This document shows, piece after piece, positions 3,660 through 13,220 of a stretch of 64,000 bases of DNA (the stretch's first letter is position 1; each line of letters begins with the position of its first letter). The stretch is taken from positions 4,142,746 through 4,206,745 of the forward strand of contig NZ_JAERQZ010000001.1 in assembly GCF_016735515.1 (NCBI RefSeq), in the 5' to 3' direction. The DNA comes from Piscinibacter sp. HJYY11 (GTDB lineage Bacteria; Pseudomonadota; Gammaproteobacteria; Burkholderiales; Burkholderiaceae_C). The position numbers were made by a program, and so were the translations under genes. Below the pieces are notes generated by a model. The model had not been told where the DNA came from. It did no database searches and was given only the letters and a program-made list of their open reading frames with translations.

Positions 3660-5858
3660 TCAGCTGCCGCGGGCCGGCCGGGGCAGCAACATGTCGACCG
3701 CATGCAAGAGGGCCGAGGGATCGGCCGGCTTGGTCAGGTGCACTGAAAACCCCGCCGCCGCCGCGCGCGCCTTGTCGGCCTCCTGGCCGTACCCCGTCAA
3801 CGCAATGAGCTTGCCGTTCCAGGCTGACCGCGCAGTGCGCAGCGCCTCCGCGAGCTGGTAGCCGTCCATCTCGGGCAGGCCGATGTCGAGCACCGCCACG
3901 TCGGGCTGGAAGTGGGTGAACAACGCGAGCGCCGCGTGCGGGTGGCCGGCGGTCTGCACCTGGTGGCCGGCCTCGCGCAGCAGCTCGGCGGCGGTGTCGA
4001 GCGCATCGGCGTTGTCGTCGACCACCAGCACACGCCCGGTGCCGTGGCCTGCGATGCGTTGCGGCACAGTGCCAGCATCGGGTGGTGGCTCGATCGTCGG
4101 CAGCTCGATGATGAAGCGGCTGCCGTGGCCGAGGCCATCGCTGTGCGCCTTCACCTCGCCGCCGTGCAGCTGCACGATGTTCTGCACGATGGCCAGGCCC
4201 AAGCCCAGGCCGCCGATGGCGCGCTCCGAGGTCTGCGGCGCCTGGTAGAAGGGCTCGAACACACGCGCGAGCGTCTCGGCCTGCATGCCTTCGCCCTGGT
4301 CTTCCACGCACAGCCGGGCGCGCTGGTGCAGCCCGTCCAGGCTCGCGGCGAGCGTGATGGCGCCGTCGCCCCCGAAGCGCAGTGCATTGGTGAGCAGGTT
4401 CGTCACGGCCTGCACGAGCCGGGTCTCGTCGCCTTCCACCCACAGTGGCGCCGAGGGCAGCTCGACGAAGAGCCCCTTGCTGCGACGTGCCTCCACCGCC
4501 GGTTGCACCGCCTCGACCGCACGCTCGACCACGGCAAAGAGGCTCACCGGCTCGCGGCGGATCTCGAGCTTGCCGCGTGTGATGCGAGAGACGTCGAGCA
4601 GGTCGTCGACCAGCCGCCGCATGTGGGCCACCTGGCGGCCCATGATCTCGCGCTCGCGCGAGGTGCTGTCGTCGCTCTTGCGGTTGAGCAGGTGCAGCGT
4701 GGTGAGCATGGGCGCGAGCGGGTTGCGCAGCTCGTGGCCCAGCACCGCGAGGAACTGGTCCTTCGCCTGCGCCGCGGCCGTGGCCTGGCTCAAGGCCTCA
4801 CGCATCGACGCGGTGGTCTCGCTCAGGCGCTGCGAGGCCGAGCGCAGCGCGCGGGCCATCTCGTCGATCTCGTCGATCTCGCTGTGCATCTCGGCGACGG
4901 GCCGGCCCTCGCCCAGCTGCACGGCGCTGTCGCGCACGGCATGGATGTCTTCGGTGATGCGGTCGGCGATGCGGCGCGCGAGGCCCATGCACAGCAGCAC
5001 GGTGGCGAGCGTGCCGGCCACGTACCACGCGAGGCCGGTGGCGAGCGCCTGGTCGGGGCCTTCGGTGGGGGCGCCGACGGCGACCGTCCACCCCACGTCG
5101 CGCAGGCGCGTGAAGCCGGTGTACACGTCATCGCCTTCGAGCGATCGGGTGAGCCCGCTGCCGCTGCTGGCCGGGCTCGAGATCAGGGCCCTGAGCGTGG
5201 GCGAGGGGCCCTGGCTCTGGTGCTCGCGCGTGCGCGCGACACGGTTCTGCGCGTTGTCGAACACGGCGATCACCCAGCCGGGCGGCACGCTCTGCTTCTG
5301 CAGGACGTCGAGGATGGGCTCGGGCTTCACCGCCGCCGTCAGCACATAGGCGAGCTTGCCGTCGATGACGACCGGCCACCGCACGGCGAAGGCACCCGAC
5401 TGGCGTCGGCCGAAGGTGAGGCCGCCCACCACCGGCTGGCCGGTCTGGATGACTTTCGCGAGGCTCGTGGGGTCGACCACCCGCGGCTCGCGGCTGCCAT
5501 AGGCCTCGACGGTGTTGAAGAGCGGCTCGCCCTGCCCGTTGGTGAGCACCACCGCGAGCCATGCGGGCCGCGCGGCCACCTCGTTTTGCGCCACTTCGTA
5601 GAAGGCTGCGATGTTGCCCTCGGCCAGCGGCCTGGCGCGTGCCATCGCGGCCAGCGAGCGCACCGTGGCGTCGATCTCCGACTCCACCGCGCTCGCCAGC
5701 GCACGCGACAGCTCCAGCGTCGAGCGCTGCAGGTTCTGCCGCTGTGTCTGGATGGCATTCCAGATGCCCCACGCTCCCAGCAAGGACACCGGCAGCAAGC
5801 CCACCGCGGCCAGCAGGATCAGCTTGTGACGCAGGGGGCGGGCAGGGCGGATGGTCAT
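3660..5858 (-). CDS. Membrane-bound hybrid sensor histidine kinase with C-terminal receiver
   Basis: 732 residues. Order: transmembrane helix near residues 11-31; periplasmic sensor region of about 240 residues (dCache-like by layout); second transmembrane helix near 275-293; a HAMP-like linker with IDEIDEMARALRSASQRL; HisKA with the phospho-acceptor His375 in FLAVLGHELRNPLAP; HATPase with TNLLTNALRFGGDGA and GGLGLGLAIVQNIV; and a receiver domain with Asp658 in VAVLDIGLPEMDGY and the conserved Lys in LTKPAD. The signal sensed is unknown. No response regulator gene is adjacent, so output goes either through its own receiver to a distant phosphotransfer protein or to an unlinked regulator. It is transcribed alone. 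Confidence 0.9.
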   Translation of the reverse strand: MTIRPARPLRHKLILLAAVGLLPVSLLGAWGIWNAIQTQRQNLQRSTLELSRALASAVESEIDATVRSLAAMARARPLAEGNIAAFYEVAQNEVAARPAWLAVVLTNGQGEPLFNTVEAYGSREPRVVDPTSLAKVIQTGQPVVGGLTFGRRQSGAFAVRWPVVIDGKLAYVLTAAVKPEPILDVLQKQSVPPGWVIAVFDNAQNRVARTREHQSQGPSPTLRALISSPASSGSGLTRSLEGDDVYTGFTRLRDVGWTVAVGAPTEGPDQALATGLAWYVAGTLATVLLCMGLARRIADRITEDIHAVRDSAVQLGEGRPVAEMHSEIDEIDEMARALRSASQRLSETTASMREALSQATAAAQAKDQFLAVLGHELRNPLAPMLTTLHLLNRKSDDSTSREREIMGRQVAHMRRLVDDLLDVSRITRGKLEIRREPVSLFAVVERAVEAVQPAVEARRSKGLFVELPSAPLWVEGDETRLVQAVTNLLTNALRFGGDGAITLAASLDGLHQRARLCVEDQGEGMQAETLARVFEPFYQAPQTSERAIGGLGLGLAIVQNIVQLHGGEVKAHSDGLGHGSRFIIELPTIEPPPDAGTVPQRIAGHGTGRVLVVDDNADALDTAAELLREAGHQVQTAGHPHAALALFTHFQPDVAVLDIGLPEMDGYQLAEALRTARSAWNGKLIALTGYGQEADKARAAAAGFSVHLTKPADPSALLHAVDMLLPRPARGS

Positions 5859-5927
5859 GAAGGGCTTCGAGGTGCGCGTGAGCTTACCCGCCCTCCTGCG
5901 CCGACACGGCCTTATCCCCCCGCGCCT

Positions 5928-7148
5928 TTAGCCTTTGACGCAGACCACCTGCTTCAGCGTGTGCACCACGTCGACCAGCTCGGCTTGAGCGGCCATCACG
6001 GCGTCGATGTCCTTGTAGGCCGCGGGCGTCTCGTCGATGACGTCCTTGTCCTTGCGGCATTCGACGCCTTCGGTCGCCGTGCGGTGGTCGGCGAGCGTGA
6101 AGCGGCGCTTGGCCTCGCCGCGGCTCATCACACGGCCCGCGCCGTGCGAGCAGCTCTCGAACGAGTCGGCGTTGCCCTTGCCGCGCACGATGTAGCTGCG
6201 CGCGCCCATGCTGCCGGGGATGATGCCCAGCTGGCCGGCCTTCGCACTCACCGCACCCTTGCGGGTGACGTACACGTCTTCGCCGAAGTGGCGTTCCTTC
6301 TGCACGTAGTTGTGGTGGCAGTTCACCGCCTCGATGTGCGACTGGAAGTTCTTGCGGATCACCGTCTTCGCGGCCTCGATCACGCGCTTCATCATCACCT
6401 CGCGGTTGAGGGCCGCGAACTTCTGCGCCCAGCCCACCGCCCGCACGTAGTCGCCGAAGTAGCGGCTGCCTTCCTCGAAGTACGCGAGGTCGCGGTCGGG
6501 CAGGTTGGCCTGGTGGCGCATCGCGTCCTGCTTGGCCAGCTCGATGAACATCGTGCCGATGAAGTTGCCCACGCCGCGCGAGCCCGAGTGCAGCATGAAC
6601 CAGACGAACTTCTGCTCGTCCAGGCAGACCTCGATGAAGTGGTTGCCGGTACCGAGCGTGCCCAGGTGCTGGATGTGGTTGGTCTTGGCGATCTTCGGGT
6701 AGTCGCGGCACAGCTCGGTGAACTCGGGCTCGAGCTGTGCCCAGGCGGTGTTCACTGAGCCCGGTGGCTTCTGCCAGGCACCGGGGTCACGCGCGCCGGG
6801 CGAGCGGCCATGCGGCACGGCACGCTCGATGGCCGAACGCAGCGGGCCGAGGTTGTCGGGCAGGTCTTCGGCGGTGAGCGTGGTCTTGCAGGCGATCATG
6901 CCGCAACCGATGTCGACACCGACGGCCGCCGGGATGATGGCCTTGACGGTCGGGATCACCGAGCCGACGGTCGCACCGATGCCCAGGTGCACGTCGGGCA
7001 TGGCCGCGATGTGCTTGAAGACGATGGGCAGACGGGCGGCGTTCGAGAGCTGGCGCTTGGCTTCGTCTTCGACGGGCACGCCCCGCGTCCACATCTTCAG
7101 CGGCACGCCACCGGGCACGTCTTCGTGGATGTGTTGAGGTTCTTCCAT
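5928..7148 (-). CDS. rtcB: RNA ligase RtcB
   Basis: 406-residue GTP- and Mn2+-dependent ligase joining RNA 2',3'-cyclic-phosphate or 3'-phosphate ends to 5'-OH ends; in bacteria it repairs cleaved tRNA and rRNA. Visible signatures are GVDIGCGM with metal-binding Cys82, HLGTLGTGNHFIEV (His170), LHSGSRGVGN (His187), NCHHNYV, PGSMGARSYIVRGKGN, and the guanylylated His335 in SCSHGAGR. The start at MEEPQHIHEDV was chosen because it matches family N-termini; longer open sequence upstream overlaps the neighbouring gene. It is the last gene of a long minus-strand unit with an unknown protein, slipin, protease, HNH nuclease and a tRNA array. No rtcA, archease or rtcR is visible in the window. Confidence 0.96.
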   Translation of the reverse strand: MEEPQHIHEDVPGGVPLKMWTRGVPVEDEAKRQLSNAARLPIVFKHIAAMPDVHLGIGATVGSVIPTVKAIIPAAVGVDIGCGMIACKTTLTAEDLPDNLGPLRSAIERAVPHGRSPGARDPGAWQKPPGSVNTAWAQLEPEFTELCRDYPKIAKTNHIQHLGTLGTGNHFIEVCLDEQKFVWFMLHSGSRGVGNFIGTMFIELAKQDAMRHQANLPDRDLAYFEEGSRYFGDYVRAVGWAQKFAALNREVMMKRVIEAAKTVIRKNFQSHIEAVNCHHNYVQKERHFGEDVYVTRKGAVSAKAGQLGIIPGSMGARSYIVRGKGNADSFESCSHGAGRVMSRGEAKRRFTLADHRTATEGVECRKDKDVIDETPAAYKDIDAVMAAQAELVDVVHTLKQVVCVKG

Positions 7149-7161
7149 GATGTTGATTCCT

Positions 7162-7899
7162 TCATTGCACGCAGCCGCTTTGGGCTGCGAGTGCGTAGTT
7201 CTTGAGTTCTTCGTCGCCGGGCCCAAGCTGGCGCACGAACTCCGCGAGGCGGCGATCGACCGCCGCTTTGTCCAGGTACTCGATGTGGTGCCCGATGCCA
7301 TGCAGCGCCGAAACCTGCACGTCACGCCACGGCATCGACAGCATTTGCGCGAAGACGTTCCACAGCGCCTGCTGCCAGCGTGGCGAATGACGCACGTTCC
7401 AGAACGTGGGCCAGACGTCGAACCACATGTAGCAGACGAAATAGAGCCGATCCGAGCGCGAGCCGATGGGCGAGCGGGCGTCGCCCAGGCGAGGGCCGAG
7501 GCAGGTTTCCCACACCTTGGGCAGCGCGGCCATCATGCGCATGGCCTCGTCTTCCGGCACGCCGGGGTCGATCGCCGCGAAGGCCACGTTGCTGACGCTG
7601 TTGCTCATCACGTAGTTGAGCCCCATGCCGACCTGTTCATCGTTGTAGGCCGCAAGGTCTCGGCCGGCGTTCGCGAAGAGGCAGGCCTGGATGCGGGTCC
7701 ATTCGAGCGGCGTGGCCTCGAACGCCGGTTCGTCGAGCGACCAGAACCACTCCTGCTCCTGCCCCTGCGGCACGGGCCGGTCGAAGAGGTAGCGCAGGGC
7801 CGACGCGTACAGCGCCGGGTCCAGACCGAGGCCTTGCGGCGACCAGTCCTGTTCCCGCGCCAGCTTGCGCTGGGCCTGGCGGGTGCGTTTGGCGTTCAT
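7162..7899 (-). CDS. Conserved-looking protein of unknown function in the rtcB operon
   Basis: 245 residues, soluble, no signal peptide. It begins MNAKRTRQAQRKLAREQDW and is aromatic-rich (EQEWFWSLDE, MWFDVWPTFWNVRHSPRW). The C-terminal third contains HGIGHHIEYLDKAAVDRRL, with a helical repeat character reminiscent of HEAT-like armadillo folds, though this is only an impression. It sits 13 bp before rtcB and 57 bp after the slipin gene on the same strand, so it is almost certainly co-transcribed and may act with RtcB. I cannot assign a family. The two adjacent His residues at GHH could bind metal, but nothing else supports a catalytic role. Confidence 0.75.
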   Translation of the reverse strand: MNAKRTRQAQRKLAREQDWSPQGLGLDPALYASALRYLFDRPVPQGQEQEWFWSLDEPAFEATPLEWTRIQACLFANAGRDLAAYNDEQVGMGLNYVMSNSVSNVAFAAIDPGVPEDEAMRMMAALPKVWETCLGPRLGDARSPIGSRSDRLYFVCYMWFDVWPTFWNVRHSPRWQQALWNVFAQMLSMPWRDVQVSALHGIGHHIEYLDKAAVDRRLAEFVRQLGPGDEELKNYALAAQSGCVQ

Positions 7900-7956
7900 G
7901 GTGTCGTTCTTCCAATCGAATTGTCCCGGGGGAGCAACGCTGCTCCCCCGGGAGGG

Positions 7957-9105
7957 TCAAGGCCGAAGCTTCACGAGGCCGTTGAGCACCTGGTCGAGAC
8001 CCCCGAACACGGAGATCTTGTCGATGCGCTCGGCCACGCGTTCCAGCGTCTCCAGCTCCTTCAGGCGCAGGGCGGTGGGGTTGTCCTCCATCACCTTGGC
8101 CGTGTTGAGCAGGGAACGCGTCGCCGCGGTTTCCTCGCGGCGGCGGATCACGTTGGCCTCGGCTGCCTTGCCGGCCTCGACCACCTGGGCGAGGATGGTC
8201 TTCATCTCGCCCGGCAGCACGATGTCCTTCACGCCCACGCCGTCGATCTCGAGTCCGTAGACCGAGAGCTTGGCGCGCACATGGGCCGACACCACCTCGT
8301 CGATCACCGACTTGTTCTCCAGCAGCTCGTCCAGCGTGCGCGTACCGACGGCCGCGCGCAGGCCGAACTGCAGCTCGCGGTACAGGTGCTCCGCGGGCTT
8401 GGCGAGCCGGGTGTAGGCGGTCAGCACCGCGTTGGCGTTGGCATAGCGCCAGGTCGCCGACAGGTTGAGACGCAGGCCCACCTTGTCGCGGGTCAGGATC
8501 TCCTGGCCGGTGACCTCGAGGGCCTGCAGGCGCAGGTCGACCAGCTCGACCGAAATCGTGCGGTTGAACTTCCAGAAGCCGTGCGGGCCCGGCGGCAGCA
8601 GGCGCTCGACCTTGCCGTCGACGGTCAGCACGCCCACGGCGTGTTCGGGCACCTGCACGGTGAGCACGCCGGCGAGGCCGGCGACCGCACGCGAGCGCAG
8701 CTGCGTTTGCGTGAGGCGCTGCACCAGGGCGGGCGGCAGCTCGGCGGTGTCGGTGATGTCGATCACCTCCACGCGCACGTCGACCAGGCCCTTCCAGTAC
8801 AGACGTCGGGTCGCCGGGGCCAGCAGCTCGACCAGCACGCCGTTCTCGTAGCGCAGGCCGACCTGCGTTTCAGTGAGCTCGACGCGCACGAATTCGGCCT
8901 CGACCACCGCCGGCTCCTTGGCCAGCAGGTAGTCGGACAGCGGGTGGGTGAAGGCCGGCTGTTCGATCGAGAAGGTCTCGACGCGCAGACGGTCGAGGCC
9001 GGACGCGAGCCAGTGCGTGCCGGGTTGCAGCACGCGCTCGAAATCGCCATTGCGCAGCAGGAGGCCGCGTTCGTTCTTCTTGACAGTGACACGCTTGAAT
9101 TCCAT
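7957..9105 (-). CDS. Slipin / SPFH (band 7) family protein
   Basis: 382 residues with an SPFH/band-7 core: VTVKKNERGLLLRNGDFERV at the N-terminus, then LVDLRLQALEVTGQEILTRD and LSATWRYANANAVLTAY, then the coiled-coil part with KTILAQVVEAGKAAEANVIR. Slipins form membrane-associated oligomers and recruit proteases or repair factors. This one lacks an obvious N-terminal transmembrane helix, so membrane contact would be peripheral. AAGGAG lies before the ATG. Slipin-like genes next to rtcB are a recognised bacterial arrangement, which supports a role in the RNA-repair unit, perhaps as a scaffold. The neighbouring ClpP-fold protease gene recalls slipin-protease pairs (stomatin with its cognate serine protease). 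Confidence 0.9.
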   Translation of the reverse strand: MEFKRVTVKKNERGLLLRNGDFERVLQPGTHWLASGLDRLRVETFSIEQPAFTHPLSDYLLAKEPAVVEAEFVRVELTETQVGLRYENGVLVELLAPATRRLYWKGLVDVRVEVIDITDTAELPPALVQRLTQTQLRSRAVAGLAGVLTVQVPEHAVGVLTVDGKVERLLPPGPHGFWKFNRTISVELVDLRLQALEVTGQEILTRDKVGLRLNLSATWRYANANAVLTAYTRLAKPAEHLYRELQFGLRAAVGTRTLDELLENKSVIDEVVSAHVRAKLSVYGLEIDGVGVKDIVLPGEMKTILAQVVEAGKAAEANVIRRREETAATRSLLNTAKVMEDNPTALRLKELETLERVAERIDKISVFGGLDQVLNGLVKLRP

Positions 9106-9339
9106 GGGTGTTCTCCTTTTTGTCTTGCGTGTGTTTTGAATAGGGTGCCGTTACAGGGACGGCAGCGGACGGTGGATGCCTGGGCCCGGGCGACACGGTG
9201 CGCGTCGGTGCTCGCCTCCCAGTCGAGCACCTCGGCTTGCCGTGCACGCGAACCCCGCGTGCCCCACGTGCGGGCTGCCGCCGCTGATGAGGCCTTGCGG
9301 CTTCACGTTCGGCGGTGGTCTTGCGACCGGTTTCTGGAG
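9106..9339 (-). other. Non-coding stretch between the Glu-like element and slipin
   Basis: No credible ORF. It holds at least one strong hairpin: 9207-9214 pairs perfectly with 9224-9231 (8 bp, 9-base loop). A weaker GC-rich one follows near 9255-9280. The slipin ribosome binding site lies at its left end. It may be a processed spacer of the RNA-rich transcript. Confidence 0.4.
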
Positions 9340-9412
9340 TTTTGGAACGGGAGTCGAACCCGCGACCTACACATTGAAAATGTGCTGCTCTACCAAGCTG
9401 AGCTATCCAGTT
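9340..9412 (-). tRNA. tRNA-Glu(UUC)-like element with a broken acceptor stem
   Basis: On the minus strand there is a normal D-arm (TAGCTC...GAGC with GG in the loop), a 5-bp anticodon arm with loop TTTTCAA (anticodon UUC), a 5-base variable loop and a T-arm with canonical TTCGACT loop. The acceptor strands are AACTGGA and TCCAAAA: only the four inner pairs form and the three terminal pairs mismatch. No CCA is encoded. It therefore looks like a decayed, or non-translational, tRNA. Its first base coincides with the last base of the CCA of the preceding mini-element. Confidence 0.65.
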
Positions 9413-9466
9413 GGTGGCCATCCGGGAGTCGAACCCGGCACACGAGGTGCAAACCACTTGATGGCC
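9412..9466 (-). ncRNA. 55-nt tRNA-like mini-element (acceptor stem, T-arm, ACCA)
   Basis: Minus-strand GGCCAT (9461-9466) pairs with ATGGCC (9416-9421), directly followed by encoded ACCA. A perfect 5-bp T-arm with loop TTCGACT abuts the acceptor. Between 5' acceptor and T-arm only 21-22 bases remain, with room for one weak hairpin instead of D- and anticodon arms. It resembles the acceptor/T half of tRNA, as in tRNA-like domains or extreme armless tRNAs. It may be a deletion relic, but the retained pairing and CCA argue for selection. Confidence 0.55.
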
Positions 9467-9593
9467 GCATCAGCTGCGATCGGCGTGCGGCATGTGCCAC
9501 CACGACGGATTGCTCCCGGCAGCAGCACACCGGCGAGGCAGGCCTTCACCCGAACCCCAACCTGTGAGCAGTTCGCCGTTCGCAGAAGATTCG

Positions 9594-10612
9594 TTACGCC
9601 ACGTGCAGTTCCGACCGCACGATGCGCTTGCCCACACGCTCGATGCGACGCCAGCCGCTGTTGTCGTTCAGCGTGATCCAGCGGCGCTCTTCGGCGCGGT
9701 AGAACCAGTCCTTGTCCTGCTGGTAGTAGACCTGCGAGGCGGTCGACTCCCAGATGTTCAGGATCTCGTTGCTGTGGGCATGCGTCTCGTCGAAGTCGGT
9801 CGTCGCCTTTTGGCCCATCTCGCTGTAGAAGCTGTTGAGCTGCAGCAGCATCGCGTTGACTTCCAGCGGCATGCGCTCGGCCTTGAGGCCGATCTTCACC
9901 GCTTCGTCCAGCAGGATGGGGTAGCTGTGCGACGGGTACTTGCCGTTCAGCGCCGTCGCGACGCCTCGGCCTTCTCGGCGTCGGTGACGTGATAGGCCAG
10001 CAGCTCGCGGCACAGCATGATCGACAGCGACTCCGCACGGTCCACCGCGCCGATCACCAGCGGGTGCACGTACTGGAACAGCGACTTGTACGCGTTCTCA
10101 GGATGCTCACCCTGCTGCTCGCGCCACAGGCGGATCACGCGCTGCAGCTCGTTCAGGCTCACGCTCACGCGGTCGTTGTCACGGTCGACCGGCGAGAGCG
10201 GGTGGTTGAGCGAGGTGTCGACGGCGGTGAGGTAGGCGGTCGGGCCCATCTGGATGCCGTCGGCGCCGAGCGCCACCATCGTCGCGGCGGACGCGCACTC
10301 CAGCGGCACGAGCGCCACGAGACGATCGCAGTGCTGGCGCAGCAGGTTCACGATGCGCAGCGAGGTCTGGCCGCTGCCACCGTCCGACTTGAGGAACAGG
10401 TACAGCACGGGGTGGCGGCCGAGCTTCGCGAGCACGTGGTGCAGCGCGATCACGTCGTTGCTGCACACCGAGCCACGGGGGCCATTCCAGTAGGTGACCA
10501 TCGGGCCACCCAGGCGATCGGCCAGCTTCGCGATCAACGCCTGCGTCTTGCCGAAGAGCACGGGCGGCTGCTTGACCTTGAGGTCGAGCGCTGGGAGTTG
10601 TTCGTTCTTCAT
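9594..10612 (-). pseudogene. SDH-family ClpP-fold serine protease, interrupted by one frameshift
   Basis: Member of the SDH/ClpP-crotonase-fold serine proteases. The first reading frame starts MKNEQLPALDLKVKQPPVLF and carries LFLKSDGGSGQTSLRIV, the probable nucleophile segment ECASAATMVALGADGIQMGP and AYLTAVDTSLNHPLSP. It stops after AYHVTDAEKAEASRRR. The homologous continuation, ATALNGKYPSHSYPILLDEA through to RIERVGKRIVRSELHVA, lies in another frame from about 9975. The whole span is one base short of 340 codons, consistent with a single-base deletion near 9970-9980. It could be a real inactivating mutation, programmed shifting or a sequencing error. It lies between the HNH gene and the tRNA-like pair, in the rtcB unit. 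Confidence 0.8.
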
Positions 10613-10658
10613 GATGCGTCTTTCGGTTGAGTGAGTGGAGGCGGGACCGCCCCCGCAC

Positions 10659-11243
10659 TCAGCCGTGCAGACGCGATCCCTTGGGCAGGCGTGCGGCCAG
10701 CCACTCGTGCACGTCGGCACGGATGCGGCGGCCTTCGAGCAGGAAGTTCTCGAAGCGGCTGGGCACGTAGGGCAGGTACAGCAAGGGCATGCCGGCTTCC
10801 TCCGGCGTGCGGTCGGCCTTGCGGCCGTTGCAGCAGGCGCAGGCGCAGGCGGTGACGAGGTTCATCCAGCCCCAGGCGCCGCCACGCGACTCGGGCTGGA
10901 TGTGTTCGCACTGCAGGTCGCGGTCGCCAAACACGCCCCCGCAGTAAGCGCAGGTGTGGCGGTCGCGGCGGAAGAGCTTGTGCTTGGTGATCGCCGGCAC
11001 GATGTCGTGCAGGTTGATCTTCGAGGCACCGCGCAAGGCGACGATCGGGTGGACCTCGATCAGCGACTGGCGGTTGCGGGCGACGTTGAAGCCCCCGCGC
11101 AGGGTGGCGAGCGGTCCATCGCCATCCACCCACGCGACCGAGCCCGTGGCCACGTGCAAAGCGGCCTGTTCGAGCGAGATCCACGCTTGGGGCGTGCCCT
11201 GGAGGTCGAGTTGCAGCACGTGGCTGTGAGGGTCTTGGTGCAT
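10659..11243 (-). CDS. HNH endonuclease domain protein
   Basis: 194 residues. The first about 75 residues form a small beta-rich domain (VLQLDLQGTPQAWISLEQA). The HNH domain follows, with zinc-ribbon and catalytic features RDRHTCAYCGG, LQCEHIQPESRGG and NLVTACACACCNGRKADR: two Cys-x2-Cys-type pairs, His in EHI, Asn in MNLV, and a final basic Lys-Ala-Asp-Arg. A perfect AGGAGG lies six bases before the ATG at 11243, which decides the start. HNH proteins can nick DNA or, less often, act on RNA; the substrate here is unknown. It is embedded between tRNA genes and the protease of the rtcB unit. Similar free-standing HNH genes also occur near phage tRNA arrays, so a mobile origin is possible. Confidence 0.9.
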   Translation of the reverse strand: MHQDPHSHVLQLDLQGTPQAWISLEQAALHVATGSVAWVDGDGPLATLRGGFNVARNRQSLIEVHPIVALRGASKINLHDIVPAITKHKLFRRDRHTCAYCGGVFGDRDLQCEHIQPESRGGAWGWMNLVTACACACCNGRKADRTPEEAGMPLLYLPYVPSRFENFLLEGRRIRADVHEWLAARLPKGSRLHG

Positions 11244-11282
11244 GGGTGGCCTCCTTTCTGCGGCCGATGGGTTGGGTTGAGA

Positions 11283-11359
11283 TGGCAAGGGCGGCAGGAT
11301 TCGAACCTGCGTGGCACCGGTTCAAAGCCGGCTGTCTGAGGCCTCTCGACTACGCCGCG
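11283..11359 (-). tRNA. tRNA-Gln(UUG)-like element, weak acceptor stem, CCA encoded
   Basis: Minus strand has anticodon arm GCCGG-CTTTGAA-CCGGT (anticodon UUG), T-arm GCAGG-TTCGAAT-CCTGC, discriminator G73 (typical for Gln) and encoded CCA. The acceptor strands CGCGGCG and CGCCCTT give four inner Watson-Crick pairs, then mismatch, G-U, mismatch. The D-arm has about three pairs. Function in translation is doubtful but possible. Confidence 0.65.
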
Positions 11360-11367
11360 GTTGTTGT

Positions 11368-11452
11368 TGGTCCCCTCGGTCCGAGTCGAACGGACATGCC
11401 TTGCGGCCCCGGCTTCTGAGACCGGTGCGTTTGCCTGTTTCGCCACGAGGGG
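11368..11452 (-). tRNA. tRNA-Leu(CAG)
   Basis: 85-nt class II tRNA on the minus strand. Acceptor CCCCTCG/CGAGGGG is a perfect 7 bp, followed by A73 and encoded CCA. Anticodon loop CTCAGAA (CAG), long variable arm with a GCC-GCAA-GGC stem-loop, T-arm GTCCG-TTCGACT-CGGAC. All elements needed for a working tRNA are present. C1-G72 is unlike the G1 of the usual proteobacterial tRNA-Leu. Confidence 0.9.
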
Positions 11453-11462
11453 GCATGAAAGA

Positions 11463-11566
11463 TGCGCATGCGCTGAGGGGTGACCGGTCGGACTCGAACC
11501 GACACCAACGGCACCACAAACCGCGGCTCTACCCTTGAGCTACGGCCACGCCTCAGCACACGCACA
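11463..11566 (-). other. Extended stem enclosing tRNA-His
   Basis: Bases 11463-11478 pair with 11551-11566 over 16 contiguous positions on the minus-strand RNA, four of them G-U. They continue the tRNA-His acceptor stem with a single C-C mismatch at position -1:73 between. The result is a precursor helix of 24 layers, much longer than a tRNA acceptor. Confidence 0.7.
11479..11549 (-). tRNA. tRNA-His(GUG) lacking G-1 and CCA
   Basis: Acceptor GTGGCCG/CGGTCAC (7 bp with one G-U), D-arm TAGCTC...GAGC, anticodon loop TTGTGGT (GUG), T-arm GTCGG-TTCGAGT-CCGAC, and the His-type discriminator C73. Two oddities: the genome encodes C, not G, at -1 where HisRS needs G-1, and the 3' end reads CCT rather than CCA. 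It is embedded in a long extended stem. Confidence 0.8.
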
Positions 11567-11571
11567 AGCAC

Positions 11572-11647
11572 TGGTCTCGGTGGTCCGGATCGAACGGACG
11601 GCCTCATGCTCCCAAAGCACGCGCGCTGCCAACTGCGCCACACCGAG
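11572..11647 (-). tRNA. tRNA-Pro(UGG)
   Basis: 76 nt. Acceptor CTCGGTG/CACCGAG perfect, A73, CCA encoded. D-arm GCGC with AGTTGGCA loop, anticodon loop TTTGGGA (UGG), variable AGGCC, T-arm GTCCG-TTCGATC-CGGAC. Structurally complete. Confidence 0.92.
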
Positions 11648-11657
11648 AAAGAAGAAT

Positions 11658-11720
11658 GGACTCGACGGCCCGATTGCTCGGGCTTTGCCCTCGGCCTTCG
11701 GCCCGTCGCAAGCGACGTCC
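11658..11720 (-). ncRNA. Structured spacer RNA between tRNA-Pro and the Cys-like element
   Basis: On the minus strand GGAC (11717-11720) and GTCC (11658-11661) can close a domain. It contains CGTCG-CTTG-CGACG (11704-11717, CUUG tetraloop) and GCCCGA-GCAA-TCGGGC (11668-11683, GNRA tetraloop), with further GGCC and GGGC helices between. Two classic stable tetraloops in 63 nt suggest a folded RNA rather than random GC-rich spacer. The CUUG hairpin shares one base with the closing GGAC and competes with an alternative CGACGG/CCGTCG stem. No known family recognised. Confidence 0.45.
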
Positions 11721-11728
11721 TGGTCGGC

Positions 11729-11810
11729 TCGCGCCGCCCAGAGCGAACGGGCGCGGGCTGTCGCCGTCTGCTTTGCAGGCAGATGCCTTCGACCACTTGA
11801 CTACATCGAG
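11729..11810 (-). tRNA. Degenerate tRNA-Cys(GCA)-like element
   Basis: A clean anticodon arm TCTGC-CTGCAAA-GCAGA (11767-11783, anticodon GCA) and a D-arm-like GTAGTCAAGTGGTCGAAGGC precede an unusually long variable region. The T-arm-like hairpin GCCCG-TTCGCTC-TGGGC has lost the invariant A58. Candidate acceptor strands (CTCGATG, GGCGCGA) do not pair and no CCA is in register. Most likely a tRNA relic or a non-translational tRNA-like RNA. Confidence 0.5.
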
Positions 11811-11816
11811 ATGAAC

Positions 11817-11893
11817 TGGCACCTCGTGCACGACTCGAACGTGCGACCTCCTGCTTCGTAGGCAGGCGCTCTGATCCACTGAGCTAACGAGGT
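11817..11893 (-). tRNA. tRNA-Arg(ACG)
   Basis: 77 nt. Acceptor ACCTCGT/ACGAGGT perfect, G73, CCA encoded. D-arm GCTC...GAGC, anticodon arm CCTGC-CTACGAA-GCAGG (ACG), variable AGGTC, T-arm GCACG-TTCGAGT-CGTGC. Structurally complete; seven bases separate it from tRNA-Phe. Confidence 0.93.
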
Positions 11894-11900
11894 ATGCAAC

Positions 11901-11976
11901 TGGTGCCGAGAGAGGGCTTCGATCCCCCGACGCACGCGCCTTCAACGCGCCGCTCTACCGACTGAGCTATCTCGGC
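11901..11976 (-). tRNA. tRNA-Phe(GAA)
   Basis: 76 nt. Acceptor GCCGAGA/TCTCGGC perfect, A73, CCA encoded. D-arm GCTC-AGTCGGTA-GAGC, anticodon loop TTGAAGG (GAA), T-arm GGGGG-ATCGAAG-CCCTC. The T-loop begins A rather than T54 and the anticodon loop ends GG; both are unusual for housekeeping tRNA-Phe. Confidence 0.9.
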
Positions 11977-11987
11977 AAAAAAGGAAC

Positions 11988-12062
11988 TGGCGCCTCGTGC
12001 GGGAGTCGAACCCGCGGCTTCCGGCTAGACAGGCCGGCACTCTTCCGCTGAGTTAACGAAGC
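11988..12062 (-). tRNA. tRNA-Asp(GUC)
   Basis: 75 nt, first tRNA of the array. Acceptor GCTTCGT/ACGAGGC (7 bp, one G-U), G73 as expected for Asp, CCA encoded. Anticodon arm CCGGC-CTGTCTA-GCCGG (GUC), T-arm GCGGG-TTCGACT-CCCGC. The loop ends TA instead of the usual AC seen in proteobacterial tRNA-Asp. Confidence 0.92.
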
Positions 12063-12417
12063 GAATCCATCCGGTCACGGGTTCCGGCGCCGCCCAATCG
12101 TTGCGGCCGATTTCCGCCTGCGAAGCGTGAGCTCCACGCAGGCTTCTGTTCAAAACGAATCCCACTTCGGCTGTGTCCACACGCGAGCGCCTCGTCAGGC
12201 GTCGGTGTCTCGCTGCACAGGGGCTGGCCTCGACCTGGGTCCAGGGGTCGAGGCCGCCATGCACATCCCGAGCCGCCCACACCAGGGTTGCGGACTGCGG
12301 AGTGCATGGGCACAGCCGAAGTGAGGCGGTCGGCGGCCCTCGTGGAACGAGGGCTCGCCTTCCGCGCTTCGTGCAGGACGCTCTCCGGCCAGTACCGGTG
12401 CGTGTCCTGCGGCAAGT

Positions 12418-12428
12418 TGTTAAAGAGC
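12418..12428 (-). promoter_or_regulatory. boxA antitermination element
   Basis: Minus-strand GCTCTTTAACA matches the core of the rRNA-operon boxA bound by NusB-S10. It lies about 355 bases before the first tRNA and 3 bases after a boxB-like hairpin. Such a site fits a long, untranslated, structured RNA that must escape Rho. Confidence 0.75.
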
Positions 12429-12431
12429 TGC

Positions 12432-12445
12432 GACTCCGAAGAGCC
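12432..12445 (-). promoter_or_regulatory. boxB-like hairpin with UUCG tetraloop
   Basis: Minus-strand GGCTC-TTCG-GAGTC, a 5-bp stem with one G-U closed by a UUCG loop, directly precedes boxA as in rRNA leaders. Confidence 0.55.
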
Positions 12446-12481
12446 GGGACCTTCGCGCCGATGCGCCAAGGTGGGTCCAGC

Positions 12482-12518
12482 AAAGCAAAAGGCCCGGTTC
12501 CTGTCGGACACCGGGCCT
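12482..12518 (-). terminator. Rho-independent terminator upstream of the array leader
   Basis: Minus-strand AGGCCCGGT...ACCGGGCCT is a 9-bp stem followed by TTTTGCTTTG. It sits after the 53-codon ORF and before boxA, so it can end a short leader transcript or act as an attenuator for the tRNA array. Confidence 0.7.
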
Positions 12519-12547
12519 CTGGGGTACAGAGCGTGAAGGGCGTGCGC

Positions 12548-12709
12548 CTAGGCGCTTCCCTTTCCCGGTGTCGTGATGGGCTCGCTGCGGTCAAGCCGCG
12601 CATAACCCTGCGACGTCATCGCAATGCCGCCGAAGGCACAGGCGAACGCATGCAGGTCGCGCTGGGCGCGTCCTTGCGTGTTGCGGTCGATGTGCTGGCG
12701 GGTTGTCAC
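12548..12709 (-). CDS. Possible 53-residue leader protein
   Basis: GTG start at 12709 with AAGG seven bases upstream; the sequence begins VTTRQHIDRNTQGRAQRDLH and ends PITTPGKGSA. It lies between the palindrome-overlapped promoter and a terminator hairpin, as expected for a leader peptide or small protein at the head of the tRNA transcript. Composition is basic and soluble, with no membrane segment. I do not recognise the family. The evidence is position, start context and absence of a competing gene, so it may also be spurious. Confidence 0.4.
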   Translation of the reverse strand: MTTRQHIDRNTQGRAQRDLHAFACAFGGIAMTSQGYARLDRSEPITTPGKGSA

Positions 12710-12756
12710 GATGCAGCCTTGATTGAAAACGGATGCTCTTGCGAGCGAGGAAGCGG

Positions 12757-12786
12757 ACTGTAAAGACTCTTTACCCGACTCGTCAA
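12757..12786 (-). promoter_or_regulatory. Candidate promoter overlapped by a perfect palindrome
   Basis: Minus-strand TTGACG (12781-12786) is followed after 16 bases by TTTACA (12759-12764), or after 18 bases by TACAGT (12757-12762). The perfect palindrome GTAAAGA-C-TCTTTAC (12760-12774) covers the spacer and -10. It is a natural operator for the HTH protein encoded divergently from 12849. Confidence 0.55.
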
Positions 12787-12848
12787 CCCCCTGCGACAAT
12801 GTTGTTCGACCTCGTTGCAACCACACACACGTCCGCACACCTCACGCC

Positions 12849-13220
12849 GTGCCCAACATCACCCTCACGCGCCGGCAGAACGTGCTCGCGCTCTTTCAAG
12901 ATCATGTGGAACAGGCGGTCGCGGCGGGCGCGCCTCCCAAGGGCTTGGAACAAGCCTTCGCCGCCACGCTGCAGATCTCGCCCAGCATGTGGAGCCAGAT
13001 CAAGTCGTCGCGACCCATCGGCGACAAGCTCGCACGCCAGATCGAGGTGCTGTGCGGCAAGCCGGTGAACTGGCTCGACGAGCCGCGCAAGAACACGGCG
13101 CCCACGCCGGCCGAGCACGCGTTTCTCGAACTGGCCCTCGGTGCCTGGCGCAGCACCAACGTGGCCGGTCGCAAGGCGCTCACGGCGCAGATGAAGGCGA
13201 TCGTCGAGCGCGGGACCTGA
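12849..13220 (+). CDS. Small HTH DNA-binding protein
   Basis: 123 residues from a GTG start (VPNITLTRRQNVLALFQDHV). A lambda-repressor-like helix-turn-helix is suggested at about residues 30-70: LEQAFAATLQISPSMWSQIK followed by RPIGDKLARQIEVLCGKPV, i.e. residues selecting a target then a second helix pair. The C-terminus is helical and may dimerise. It is transcribed away from the tRNA array and 75 bp from a perfect palindrome that overlaps the array's candidate promoter, so it may repress that unit and itself. Upstream in-frame sequence crosses the palindrome, which favours the GTG start used here. Confidence 0.75.
   Translation: MPNITLTRRQNVLALFQDHVEQAVAAGAPPKGLEQAFAATLQISPSMWSQIKSSRPIGDKLARQIEVLCGKPVNWLDEPRKNTAPTPAEHAFLELALGAWRSTNVAGRKALTAQMKAIVERGT

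Follow-up and report, generated by a model that had tools for sequence, protein, structure and literature searches.

RtcB ligates RNA at a 3′-phosphate by an established chemistry, and the Y RNA of the Salmonella RtcB operon is a tRNA mimic. Several described systems are reminiscent of the locus analysed here. In Anabaena sp. PCC 7120, a tRNA array, rtcB, slipin and HNH are placed under one repressor, described as acting alone at the promoter; the array, normally silent, is induced by translation stress, and chloramphenicol raises all these components, while repression is not relieved by kasugamycin, a translation inhibitor (PMC10272220). In mycobacteria, HNH and XRE genes are found in about 87% of G2 tRNA arrays, units for which horizontal spread has been supposed, with RtcB and RNA ligase absent from the main text of that study (PMC5966550). 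The Salmonella rsr-yrlBA-rtcBA operon associates RtcB with its Y RNA under the control of RtcR, which is activated by 5′ tRNA halves ending in a cyclic phosphate (PMC7790460). Finally, the rtcR/rtcA/rtcB locus of P. aeruginosa encloses an SPFH gene (PaFlo8), a likeness to our locus, and the passage of the article that presents it names neither an RNA nor a tRNA array (PMC13086221).

The stretch of DNA that we analysed, hereafter the window, comprises 64,000 nucleotides from Piscinibacter sp. HJYY11; on its minus strand, from approximately 12.79 down to 5.93 kb, it carries a single unit which brings such parts together (Table 1). With the Anabaena trn operon/TrcR regulon this unit shares an extra tRNA array, rtcB, slipin and HNH, but what is scattered there under an RHH-type repressor is here one operon with an HTH protein (HTH-like by eye), an operator unlike the TrcR motif, a leader-terminator and an RNA upstream of slipin (PMC10272220). 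With the tRNA array units of mycobacteria and of their phages and plasmids it shares the association of an array with HNH and XRE genes (PMC5966550). The RtcR-type control of Salmonella matches sister loci of the window; in contrast, the search for RtcR in the genome of the window gave no match, the unit has neither Ro60 nor YrlA among the genes examined, and its RNA, paired with slipin, is below the YrlA gathering score (RF02553; 25.5 against 69 bits; PMC7790460). As the original prediction had it, all parts from about 12.7 kb down to rtcB lie on the minus strand. Site prediction over positions 5700–12900 yields only one promoter-like site, of the sigma-70 type, and four terminator-like sites, of which a single one (12509–12492, 3′ of the leader) is on the minus strand with no other downstream, numbers so close to those of shuffled sequences that the evidential weight has to rest on conservation. 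The one promoter-like site is common to rtcB and the tRNA array, and the operon of tRNA array, HNH, slipin and rtcB is real. We consider it reasonably probable, judging by comparison, that this is an operon for tRNA replacement and RNA repair, induced by translation failure and provided with a Y-RNA-like tRNA mimic. The earlier idea, which coupled an accessory reserve of tRNAs with RNA repair, withstands both of the refuting conditions set for it, since the array tRNAs have other copies and the promoter-like site is shared, and it agrees with the Anabaena precedent (PMC10272220), while the specific trigger proposed with it, attack by anticodon nucleases or phage, is neither supported nor contradicted. 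The main genes had been recognized; what had been missed is the control region (divergent HTH gene, operator, leader ORF and terminator), together with the 245-aa gene and the slipin RNA.

Table 1. Features of the unit and of its control region, with positions in the window
Feature	Positions	Strand	Basis
HTH protein gene, divergent, short, XRE-like by eye	12783..13220	plus	homologue in 19/80 related rtcB loci
Sigma-70 type promoter TTGACG-18-TACAGT	12757..12786	minus	conserved in HTH loci
Palindromic putative operator GTAAAGAGTCTTTAC, overlapping the −10	12760..12774	minus	palindrome conservation
Leader ORF, 53 codons, GTG start, ending TPGKGSA-stop	12548..12709	minus	conserved leaders
Intrinsic terminator 3′ of leader ORF, proposed attenuator	12481..12517	minus	terminator prediction; conserved spacing
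tRNA-Asp(gtc)	11988..12062	minus	ARAGORN; Rfam 61.2 bits
tRNA-Phe(gaa)	11901..11976	minus	ARAGORN; Rfam 56.2 bits
tRNA-Arg(acg)	11817..11893	minus	ARAGORN; Rfam 65.5 bits
tRNA-Cys-like element, apparently degenerate	11726..11811	minus	ARAGORN only; under Rfam cut-off
tRNA-Pro(tgg)	11572..11647	minus	ARAGORN; Rfam 59 bits
tRNA-His(gtg)	11477..11549	minus	ARAGORN; Rfam 58.2 bits
tRNA-Leu(cag)	11368..11452	minus	ARAGORN; Rfam 49.9 bits
tRNA-Gln(ttg)	11283..11359	minus	ARAGORN; Rfam 39.3 bits
HNH protein gene, ATG start behind AGGAGG	10659..11243	minus	Pfam HNH_5 44.1 bits, HNH 33.9 bits (scanned from a longer TTG start)
SDH/ClpP-fold protease gene, frame broken	9594..10612	minus	Pfam SDH_protease 20.8 bits, cut-off 31.3
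Structured RNA, conserved stretch of ~430 nt (predicted extent)	9143..9569	minus	25-region alignment
Mini-tRNA module: acceptor stem, T arm, ACCA	9412..9466	minus	sub-threshold mascRNA/menRNA match
tRNA-like module, short acceptor, loop TTTTCAA; ARAGORN label Glu(ttc)	9339..9411	minus	Rfam tRNA 52.6 bits
Slipin gene (SPFH/Band_7)	7957..9105	minus	Pfam Band_7 113.5 bits
Gene for 245-aa protein	7162..7899	minus	homologues L100, L108, L110, L176
rtcB	5928..7154	minus	Pfam PF01139 427.3 bits

ARAGORN makes nine tRNA calls and Rfam eight. Where five intact and five divergent tRNAs had been announced, we find seven array members, for Asp, Phe, Arg, Pro, His, Leu and Gln, that score above the Rfam cut-off and an eighth, Cys-like, that looks degenerate; the supposed tRNA-Glu belongs to the structured RNA upstream of slipin. 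These seven are 62–74% identical to the nearest host tRNA for the same amino acid. For every isoacceptor of the array the genome holds a further, non-identical gene at another site, so that none is the sole copy and the array is supernumerary, with the duplicated isoacceptors of an extra (L-type) tRNA array. Seven folds that appear intact could belong to ordinary additional tRNA genes, meant for codon supply with no link to stress, but this duplication, and the location of the array, preceded both by a site of repressor type and by a terminator, make such an account very improbable.

The divergent HTH protein has no family in Pfam or NCBIfam; in a family-wide search its group, at 130 bits or more, is separate, among the matches listed, from all others (at most 101.8 bits). 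It is probably the repressor of the unit: its position and conservation suggest that, bound to the palindrome that overlaps the −10 element, it would keep a strong promoter, and with it the operon, off. The palindrome was present in 25 of 25 sources of a first set and, by pattern search, in 70 of 85, with 67 complete cases and 56 distinct leaders. The ORFs of these leaders, with starts assigned by rule, vary between 28 and 92 codons (51 of the 56 encode PG close to the C-terminus), yet the distance from stop to stem stays within 23–46 nt: an ORF predicted to be translated, a near-fixed distance and an intrinsic terminator compose the geometry of a leader-peptide attenuator. This arrangement could act as a monitor of translation. 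A ribosome reaching the leader stop would mask those codons that are complementary to the terminator's 5′ arm, and transcription, as we propose, would then end; were translation to fail, the codons would pair with that arm and transcription would read on into the supernumerary tRNAs, the HNH protein, slipin and RtcB, which may here reseal cleaved RNA, the same transcript including the tRNA-mimicking RNA. Leaders pair better with their own terminator arms (−14.9 kcal/mol) than with swapped ones (−13.9 kcal/mol; p 2e-5 by permutation among 56 leaders, relatedness uncorrected; an earlier, smaller run with 19 leaders was weaker, p 0.011), and for most single leaders many shuffles pair equally strongly. 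Of the 53 leaders that could be scored, 46 have a complementary key pair and seven are devoid of the key complementary base; the core motif is absent from three more. The leader region has an unremarkable fold energy (z −2.24), and the match between leader codons and array tRNAs is small (0.537 against 0.513). One might object that the terminator merely releases a short RNA, control being left to the HTH protein alone, as with the promoter repressor described in Anabaena (PMC10272220), and some leaders are indeed imperfectly complementary; however, spacing that is near-fixed beside ORFs of variable length, together with conservation of the C-terminal codons and coupled base changes, lead us to see this as rather unlikely. 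In 14 of the 56 attenuator loci ARAGORN finds no tRNA in the available stretch, truncated for some of them, and the cassette is therefore not for tRNAs alone.

As for the proteins, the identities first given to RtcB, slipin and the HNH protein were borne out by Pfam. The RtcB domain is full-length (PF01139 profile positions 1–426 of 426), and the whole-genome search returned one match, the sole RtcB gene found. The SDH-type protease keeps its name on a sub-cutoff match but not its integrity: the N part (9947–10612) and the C part (from 9594) are in different frames in the window, whereas each of the relatives used for comparison, L031, L034 and L037, has the gene as a single uninterrupted frame. 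The 245-aa protein located between slipin and rtcB has nothing above the Pfam cut-off and no NCBIfam or PADLOC match; among described anti-phage defence systems, PADLOC returned weak matches of the HNH protein to PtuB only (best 28.6 bits) and none for the other five proteins scanned. Relatives were collected as the 80 best matches, by RtcB closeness, of at least 588 confirmed, so that the fractions are valid for one clade only: HNH is present in 20 loci, the HTH gene in 19, and at least three ARAGORN tRNA calls, those within the slipin RNA included, in 16. Judged from gene order, two architectures are seen. In the first, RtcR/sigma-54, RNA, slipin and rtcB succeed one another and the RNA is the leader; in the second, that of the window, RtcR is missing and the array, linked to an HTH gene, comes with a predicted attenuator of the leader-peptide type. 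Among 46 tabulated RNA-bearing loci, RtcR is adjacent in 21, HNH is upstream in 19, and both occur in none (RtcR adjacent in 0 of 19 loci with HNH, against 21 of 27 without). An RtcR/sigma-54 RNA-repair operon was rejected for the window, with 0 RtcR matches in its genome (G000) and no sigma-54 site within 130 nt before the RNA; allowing two mismatches, the sigma-54 pattern has one minus-strand match in 9–13 kb, inside tRNA-Pro (11616–11631), and 23 in the window, fewer than in shuffles (mean 35.6). The array and HNH might also be understood as a mobile selfish element with a homing-type nuclease, for which slipin-rtcB would be a landing site with no shared function: HNH relatives adjoin 20–33 tRNA calls in five of eight plasmid records fetched (Methylibium, Variovorax, Nostoc and Mycobacterium plasmids), which recalls the mycobacterial arrays (PMC5966550). 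We find this quite unlikely in view of the mutual avoidance of HNH and RtcR, of the HTH-attenuator cassette preceding rtcB without tRNA calls in L053 (same contig as L165, judged by length and leader) and L169, and of the co-regulation of the same four parts in Anabaena (PMC10272220).

The slipin-associated RNA and the control region are the more novel parts of the unit. Model R1 gives the 5′ part of this RNA 129.7 bits, the window being one of its 24 training sequences; the mini-tRNA module reaches 26.4 bits as a mascRNA/menRNA (threshold 42.5), and the Rfam 15 scan of the RNA found nothing beyond the tRNA module above cut-off. In the 5′ domain 18 of 28 pairs have changed on both sides, and 0 of 500 shuffles equals this on even one of the five measures taken (permutation, relatedness uncorrected); the fold energy is unremarkable (z −1.46). 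Of 28 loci in which the start of slipin and the 520 nt before it are present, 27 have the RNA ahead of slipin; among 49 loci without slipin the RNA is found in 0. Of 46 genome loci retrieved by the RNA model, 45 have slipin in the flank (the exception is L207), and slipin loci elsewhere in the class carry a T-arm motif at the corresponding place in 15 of 16 cases. L038, the one exception among the 28, has a slipin fragment only. By analogy with the Ro60/YrlA pair, the RNA would most likely be a tRNA-shaped scaffold or regulator acting with slipin, probably neither charged nor translated. Relatives keep the scaffold of the tRNA-like module with other loops: among 74 modules, the loop is 7 nt long in 34 and of another length in 30 (15 of these are GNRA tetraloops), and 10 are unparsable. 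The 29 distinct 7-nt arms follow tRNA loop rules (pyrimidine 32 in 29, U33 in 23, A37 in 20, A38 in 23) while the anticodon varies, with position 34 near uniform and 17 different triplets; L036 and L097, with identical arm stems, differ at five of seven loop positions. Proper framing around an arbitrary anticodon would befit a bait, cut by anticodon nucleases and resealed by RtcB, whose cut ends may control downstream genes or feed RtcR, responsive as it is to tRNA halves (PMC7790460). This is unlikely, however: fewer than half of the modules have the 7-nt loop, the triplet evolves in close pairs faster than the remaining RNA but, by eye, not strikingly, and the RNA, whose synthesis probably has to await induction, is a poor fit as a sensor. 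A broader combination may be put forward tentatively, with more doubt than conviction: slipin-rtcB operons of the Gammaproteobacteria, in the wide GTDB sense, would carry an undescribed class of tRNA-mimic RNAs whose loops are interchangeable anticodon baits for tRNA-cutting enzymes, endowing RtcB with a built-in sentinel substrate, beside tRNA-reserve arrays that are triggered when ribosomes fail on a leader peptide.

To return to the preferred reading, that of a scaffold or regulator in a repair operon, one short operon unites three questions: the substrates of RtcB, the role of slipin in rtc operons and the timing of tRNA arrays. Its control region is simple enough for reporter testing. The slipin RNA, which as a whole has no family in Rfam 15, would be a new family of tRNA mimics beside the Y RNAs and, placed next to slipin and not Ro60, would offer slipin a possible RNA partner. 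The RtcR-driven and array-driven architectures lend themselves to a natural comparison between the sensing of broken tRNAs and that of failed translation. In L045, the gene for a Ro60-like protein and YrlA stand in one succession with slipin, the RNA and rtcB.

Between about 12.79 and 5.93 kb of the window, a tRNA array, an HNH gene, a structured RNA, a slipin and rtcB follow one another on the minus strand, behind a divergent HTH gene whose product is a probable repressor. The parts named in the original prediction and their common strand were confirmed in part, with corrections: the Cys element of the array is degenerate, the Glu call lies inside the RNA that precedes slipin, and the protease gene has lost its frame. 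Its reading, a tRNA reserve joined to RNA repair, is supported in its core, the tRNAs being extra copies and the consensus promoter scan of 5700-12900 returning a single promoter-like site (12757-12786); attack by anticodon nucleases or phage is a putative trigger. The sole minus-strand terminator-like site in that interval comes after the leader ORF; since the counts of promoter-like and terminator-like sites are close to those of shuffled sequences, we place the weight on conservation and not on the scan.

Features of the operon and of the divergent gene upstream of it, in window positions
Feature	Position	Strand	Basis
Promoter and palindromic operator	12757-12786	minus	consensus scan and conservation
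Leader ORF	12709-12548	minus	
Terminator	12517-12481	minus	
tRNAs Asp, Phe, Arg, degenerate Cys-like element, Pro, His, Leu, Gln (transcription order)	12062-11283	minus	
HNH gene	11243-10659	minus	
SDH-type protease gene, frame broken	10612-9594	minus	
Structured RNA	about 9569-9143	minus	
Slipin	9105-7957	minus	
Gene for 245-aa protein, no family found	7899-7162	minus	
rtcB	7154-5928	minus	
Short HTH gene, divergent, upstream of operon	12783-13220	plus	

The 245-aa protein encoded between slipin and rtcB (7162-7899) has homologues in four of the loci fetched for comparison (L100, L108, L110 and L176). Immediately after rtcB and likewise on the minus strand, 3660-5858 encodes a histidine kinase with a response-regulator domain, which as far as seen lies outside the conserved unit. 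No known defence system in PADLOC gave a clear match to the unit, and a phage origin of slipin was dropped, as no relative was found in viral contigs (six peptide patterns) or in phage records.

That the array might hold the sole copies of its tRNAs was ruled out. The whole genome has 50 Rfam tRNA matches, and a different copy exists outside the window for all nine isoacceptors called within it, the degenerate Cys and the Glu of the slipin RNA among them, so that the accessory status foreseen for the array is borne out. The seven array tRNAs with Rfam support are 62-74% identical to the nearest host tRNA for the same amino acid, and 58-74% to the host tRNA with the same anticodon. RtcB occurs once in this genome.

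Ahead of the array stands a predicted attenuator, made of a leader ORF and a terminator, under a putative operator that is, in the window, the GTAAAGAGTCTTTAC site. All 25 sources first examined have, in the promoter region, a palindrome of the GTAAAGA type or of the variant form GTGAACACTCTTCAC. Searching 399 family genomes with an alignment of the HTH protein gave matches in 117; those listed split into a high group, at 130 bits or more, and a remainder at 101.8 bits or less, and 60 high-scoring places were fetched for analysis of the control region. The operator was recognized by pattern in 70 of 85 sources, 67 of which also had the leader ORF and the terminator. The 18 incomplete sources comprise 15 without promoter or operator by pattern, one without terminator and two without ORF, and include two (L060 and L170) where operator and leader are present according to the 25-source examination. 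Some contigs are present twice among the 85, the collections overlapping; with 11 duplicated leaders counted once, 56 distinct leaders were compared. They have 28-92 codons (the start was set by rule, and the shortest are possibly cut), and despite this range the distance between stop codon and terminator stem stays within 23-46 nt. Their C-terminal codons usually specify PGEGSA or similar, 51 of the 56 having PG close to the C-terminus, and by computation the last codons can form base pairs with the terminator's 5′ arm (in the window, arm CCCGGTGTC and leader GACACCGGG). The mean energy is -14.87 kcal/mol for leaders with their own arm against -13.95 for swapped pairs, with a p of 2e-5 that is optimistic because the permutation ignores relatedness; a first swap run, on 19 leaders, had a p of 0.011. 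Three of the 56 leaders lack the core motif and could not be scored; in the other 53, its variable base is complementary between leader and arm 46 times (A/T in 36, T/A in nine, T/G in one) and not complementary seven times. Selection of leader codons to match the tRNAs of the array was not retained: residues match the array amino acids at 0.537 for own and 0.513 for swapped pairs (p 3e-4, n=29, after exclusion of 27 of the 56 leaders with fewer than three tRNA types), which is a weak trend.

Aligning the regions upstream of slipin revealed a conserved stretch of about 430 nt (25 aligned, leaving out L073, L038, L100, L101 and L102). Its 5′ domain and mini-tRNA, in an alignment of 24 sequences that also left out L037, comprise 28 pairs, in 18 of which both partners have changed; on each of five measures the alignment exceeds all 500 shuffles, and in slid controls the paired share drops from 90.8% to 42-50%. 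On the 3′ side of the mini-tRNA there follow, in this order, a tRNA-like module whose acceptor is shortened, a small hairpin, and a conserved 3′ region that ends in GTAACGGCACC. Identity with YrlA, tmRNA or another Rfam family was not supported: against Rfam 15 the tRNA module alone passes the gathering score, the matches to mascRNA and YrlA staying below the cut-off, and ARAGORN called no tmRNA within the window.

The distribution of this RNA follows that of slipin. Among the best 80 of at least 588 rtcB loci, it is present in 27 of 28 where the slipin start and 520 nt upstream are available, the exception (L038) having a slipin fragment only, and in none of 49 slipin-less loci. A search model built from the 24 sequences scores at least 34 bits in 28 of 81 sources, 24 of these by construction, as training sequences. 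In two overlapping samples it matched 19 of 399 genomes across the order at 40 bits or more, the window's own counted, and 35 of 399 in the family at E 1e-6; 45 of the 46 loci that came from these matches have slipin in the flank, L207 being the one without. Matches below 40 bits in the order and class searches were discarded as noise, none of 40 such loci being flanked by query genes of the operon. The model misses other orders, but looking for slipin itself in 293 genomes from the class added 16 loci, of which 15 have the T-arm motif within 620 nt upstream of slipin, 13 an Rfam tRNA match there (positions read off), and eight a visible rtcB in the available stretch. One (L330) has neither motif nor match, and two (L336 and L343) the motif only; in several a related 5′ hairpin with two or three modules can be discerned by eye, and in L332 the module sits in a neighbourhood with further tRNA genes. 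In this last locus, outside the order, tRNA matches flank slipin on both sides, together with an HNH match, and RtcB is 78% identical over the part seen.

Parsing the tRNA-like module in 74 RNAs, some loci being included twice, gave an anticodon-like loop of 7 nt in 34 and of another length in 30 (15 of them GNRA tetraloops), with 10 unparsed. Among the 34, 29 different arms and 25 different loops occur; the parser demanded a paired stem, so that stem pairing carries no evidential weight. The 29 arms have a pyrimidine at position 32 throughout, U33 in 23, A37 in 20 and A38 in 23, while position 34 is A in nine, U in seven, C in seven and G in six, for 17 different triplets. Between closely related RNAs the triplet evolves faster than the RNA on average, though not dramatically so, and strong positive selection on the loop was dropped. 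We therefore limit ourselves to the claim that, where a 7-nt loop is present, anticodon identity appears to be free within a kept tRNA-loop frame, which stops short of proving diversifying selection. The loops of other lengths, which are spread over more than one small clade, speak against taking the slipin RNA for a bait offered to anticodon nucleases, a reading that we consider unlikely and whose odds they lowered slightly; they also lowered our estimate of the wider proposal, which we hold to be rather doubtful, that tRNA-mimic RNAs would act as interchangeable anticodon baits while the arrays would be switched on by ribosomes failing on the leader peptide.

The fractions for rtcB neighbourhoods describe this clade, the closest 80 of at least 588 confirmed RtcB relatives having been kept. 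Slipin is matched in 31 of the 80, HNH in 20 and the HTH gene in 19, with both of the latter in 15; 16 have three or more ARAGORN tRNA calls (those in the slipin RNA counted in), with 28 in L088 and 18 in L045. Three loci (L043, L046 and L050) have the HTH gene without any tRNA call. Slipin and rtcB are separated by the HTH gene, with its promoter, leader and terminator, in L169 and in L053 (judged by length and leader, the contig of L165), and no tRNA call comes after the leader, so that the control cassette also precedes rtcB without an array; in the related L166 the leader is followed by one tRNA call.

RtcR was not found in the window's genome, nor a sigma-54 site in the 130 nt before the RNA, and sigma-54/RtcR control of its own unit was rejected. 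RtcR is present in 26 of 51 RNA-bearing genomes, and in 24 of the 26 its distance from the RNA is about 0.4 kb or less (coordinates compared). In the 46 genomes for which a locus could be tabulated (five had none), a sigma-54 site with adjacent RtcR occurs in 20, HNH upstream without either in 19, and none of the three in six; the remaining one (L151), probably misoriented in the tabulation, has adjacent RtcR without a scored sigma-54 site. HNH upstream and adjacent RtcR are never found together, and two genomes with HNH (G600 and G413) have RtcR elsewhere. From these loci, the RNA-slipin-rtcB cassette is, by gene order, predicted to have two settings, either driven by RtcR or, for the majority of the remaining loci, situated downstream of the HTH-attenuator-array module. 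G600, of the same genus as the window and with a window-like operon on its contig 1, has on its 83-kb contig 2 (L242) both an RtcR gene and an array, of 22 tRNA calls, that shares the leader-attenuator.

The T-arm motif lies within 430 nt before rtcB in 20 of the 47 loci that lack slipin and have sufficient DNA upstream, against two of 31 with slipin (best 80 of at least 588). Of seven loci scanned for YrlA, four (L045, L055, L076 and L097) have a match above the cut-off, and proteins with a Ro60 vWA domain are encoded in L045, L075 and L094. In Albitalea terrae (L045), array, HNH, RtcR, slipin RNA, slipin, a Ro60-like gene, YrlA and rtcB stand in a row, the run from RtcR to rtcB (4384-10001) lying behind an 18-tRNA array with HNH; the slipin RNA therefore does not exclude Ro60 and YrlA. 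We infer that slipin and its RNA may form a module parallel to Ro60 with YrlA.

The kind of system is already known, as witnessed by several precedents. In Anabaena lacking the repressor TrcR, a 26-tRNA operon, rtcB (77-fold), slipin (42-fold), HNH (17-fold) and others rise; the same genes are reported to be raised by chloramphenicol, and kasugamycin did not relieve repression (PMC10272220). Mycobacterial tRNA arrays carry HNH and XRE genes (PMC5966550), 5′ tRNA halves bearing a cyclic phosphate activate RtcR (PMC7790460), an SPFH gene lies inside the rtc locus of P. aeruginosa (PMC13086221), and rtcB of Acinetobacter goes up 252-fold under tigecycline (PMC7652931). In titles and abstract openings of open-licence papers we found no description of the slipin RNA and no leader-peptide attenuator of tRNA arrays; within that literature, the single-operon form, the predicted attenuator and the slipin RNA appear to be new. 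Two plasmids may be mentioned beside these arrays: one of Acaryochloris (L132), with no tRNA call in the stretch, where an HNH relative adjoins a methionine-tRNA ligase gene, and one of Variovorax (L130), where a gene with the annotation RNA ligase family protein lies within an array of 23 tRNA calls.
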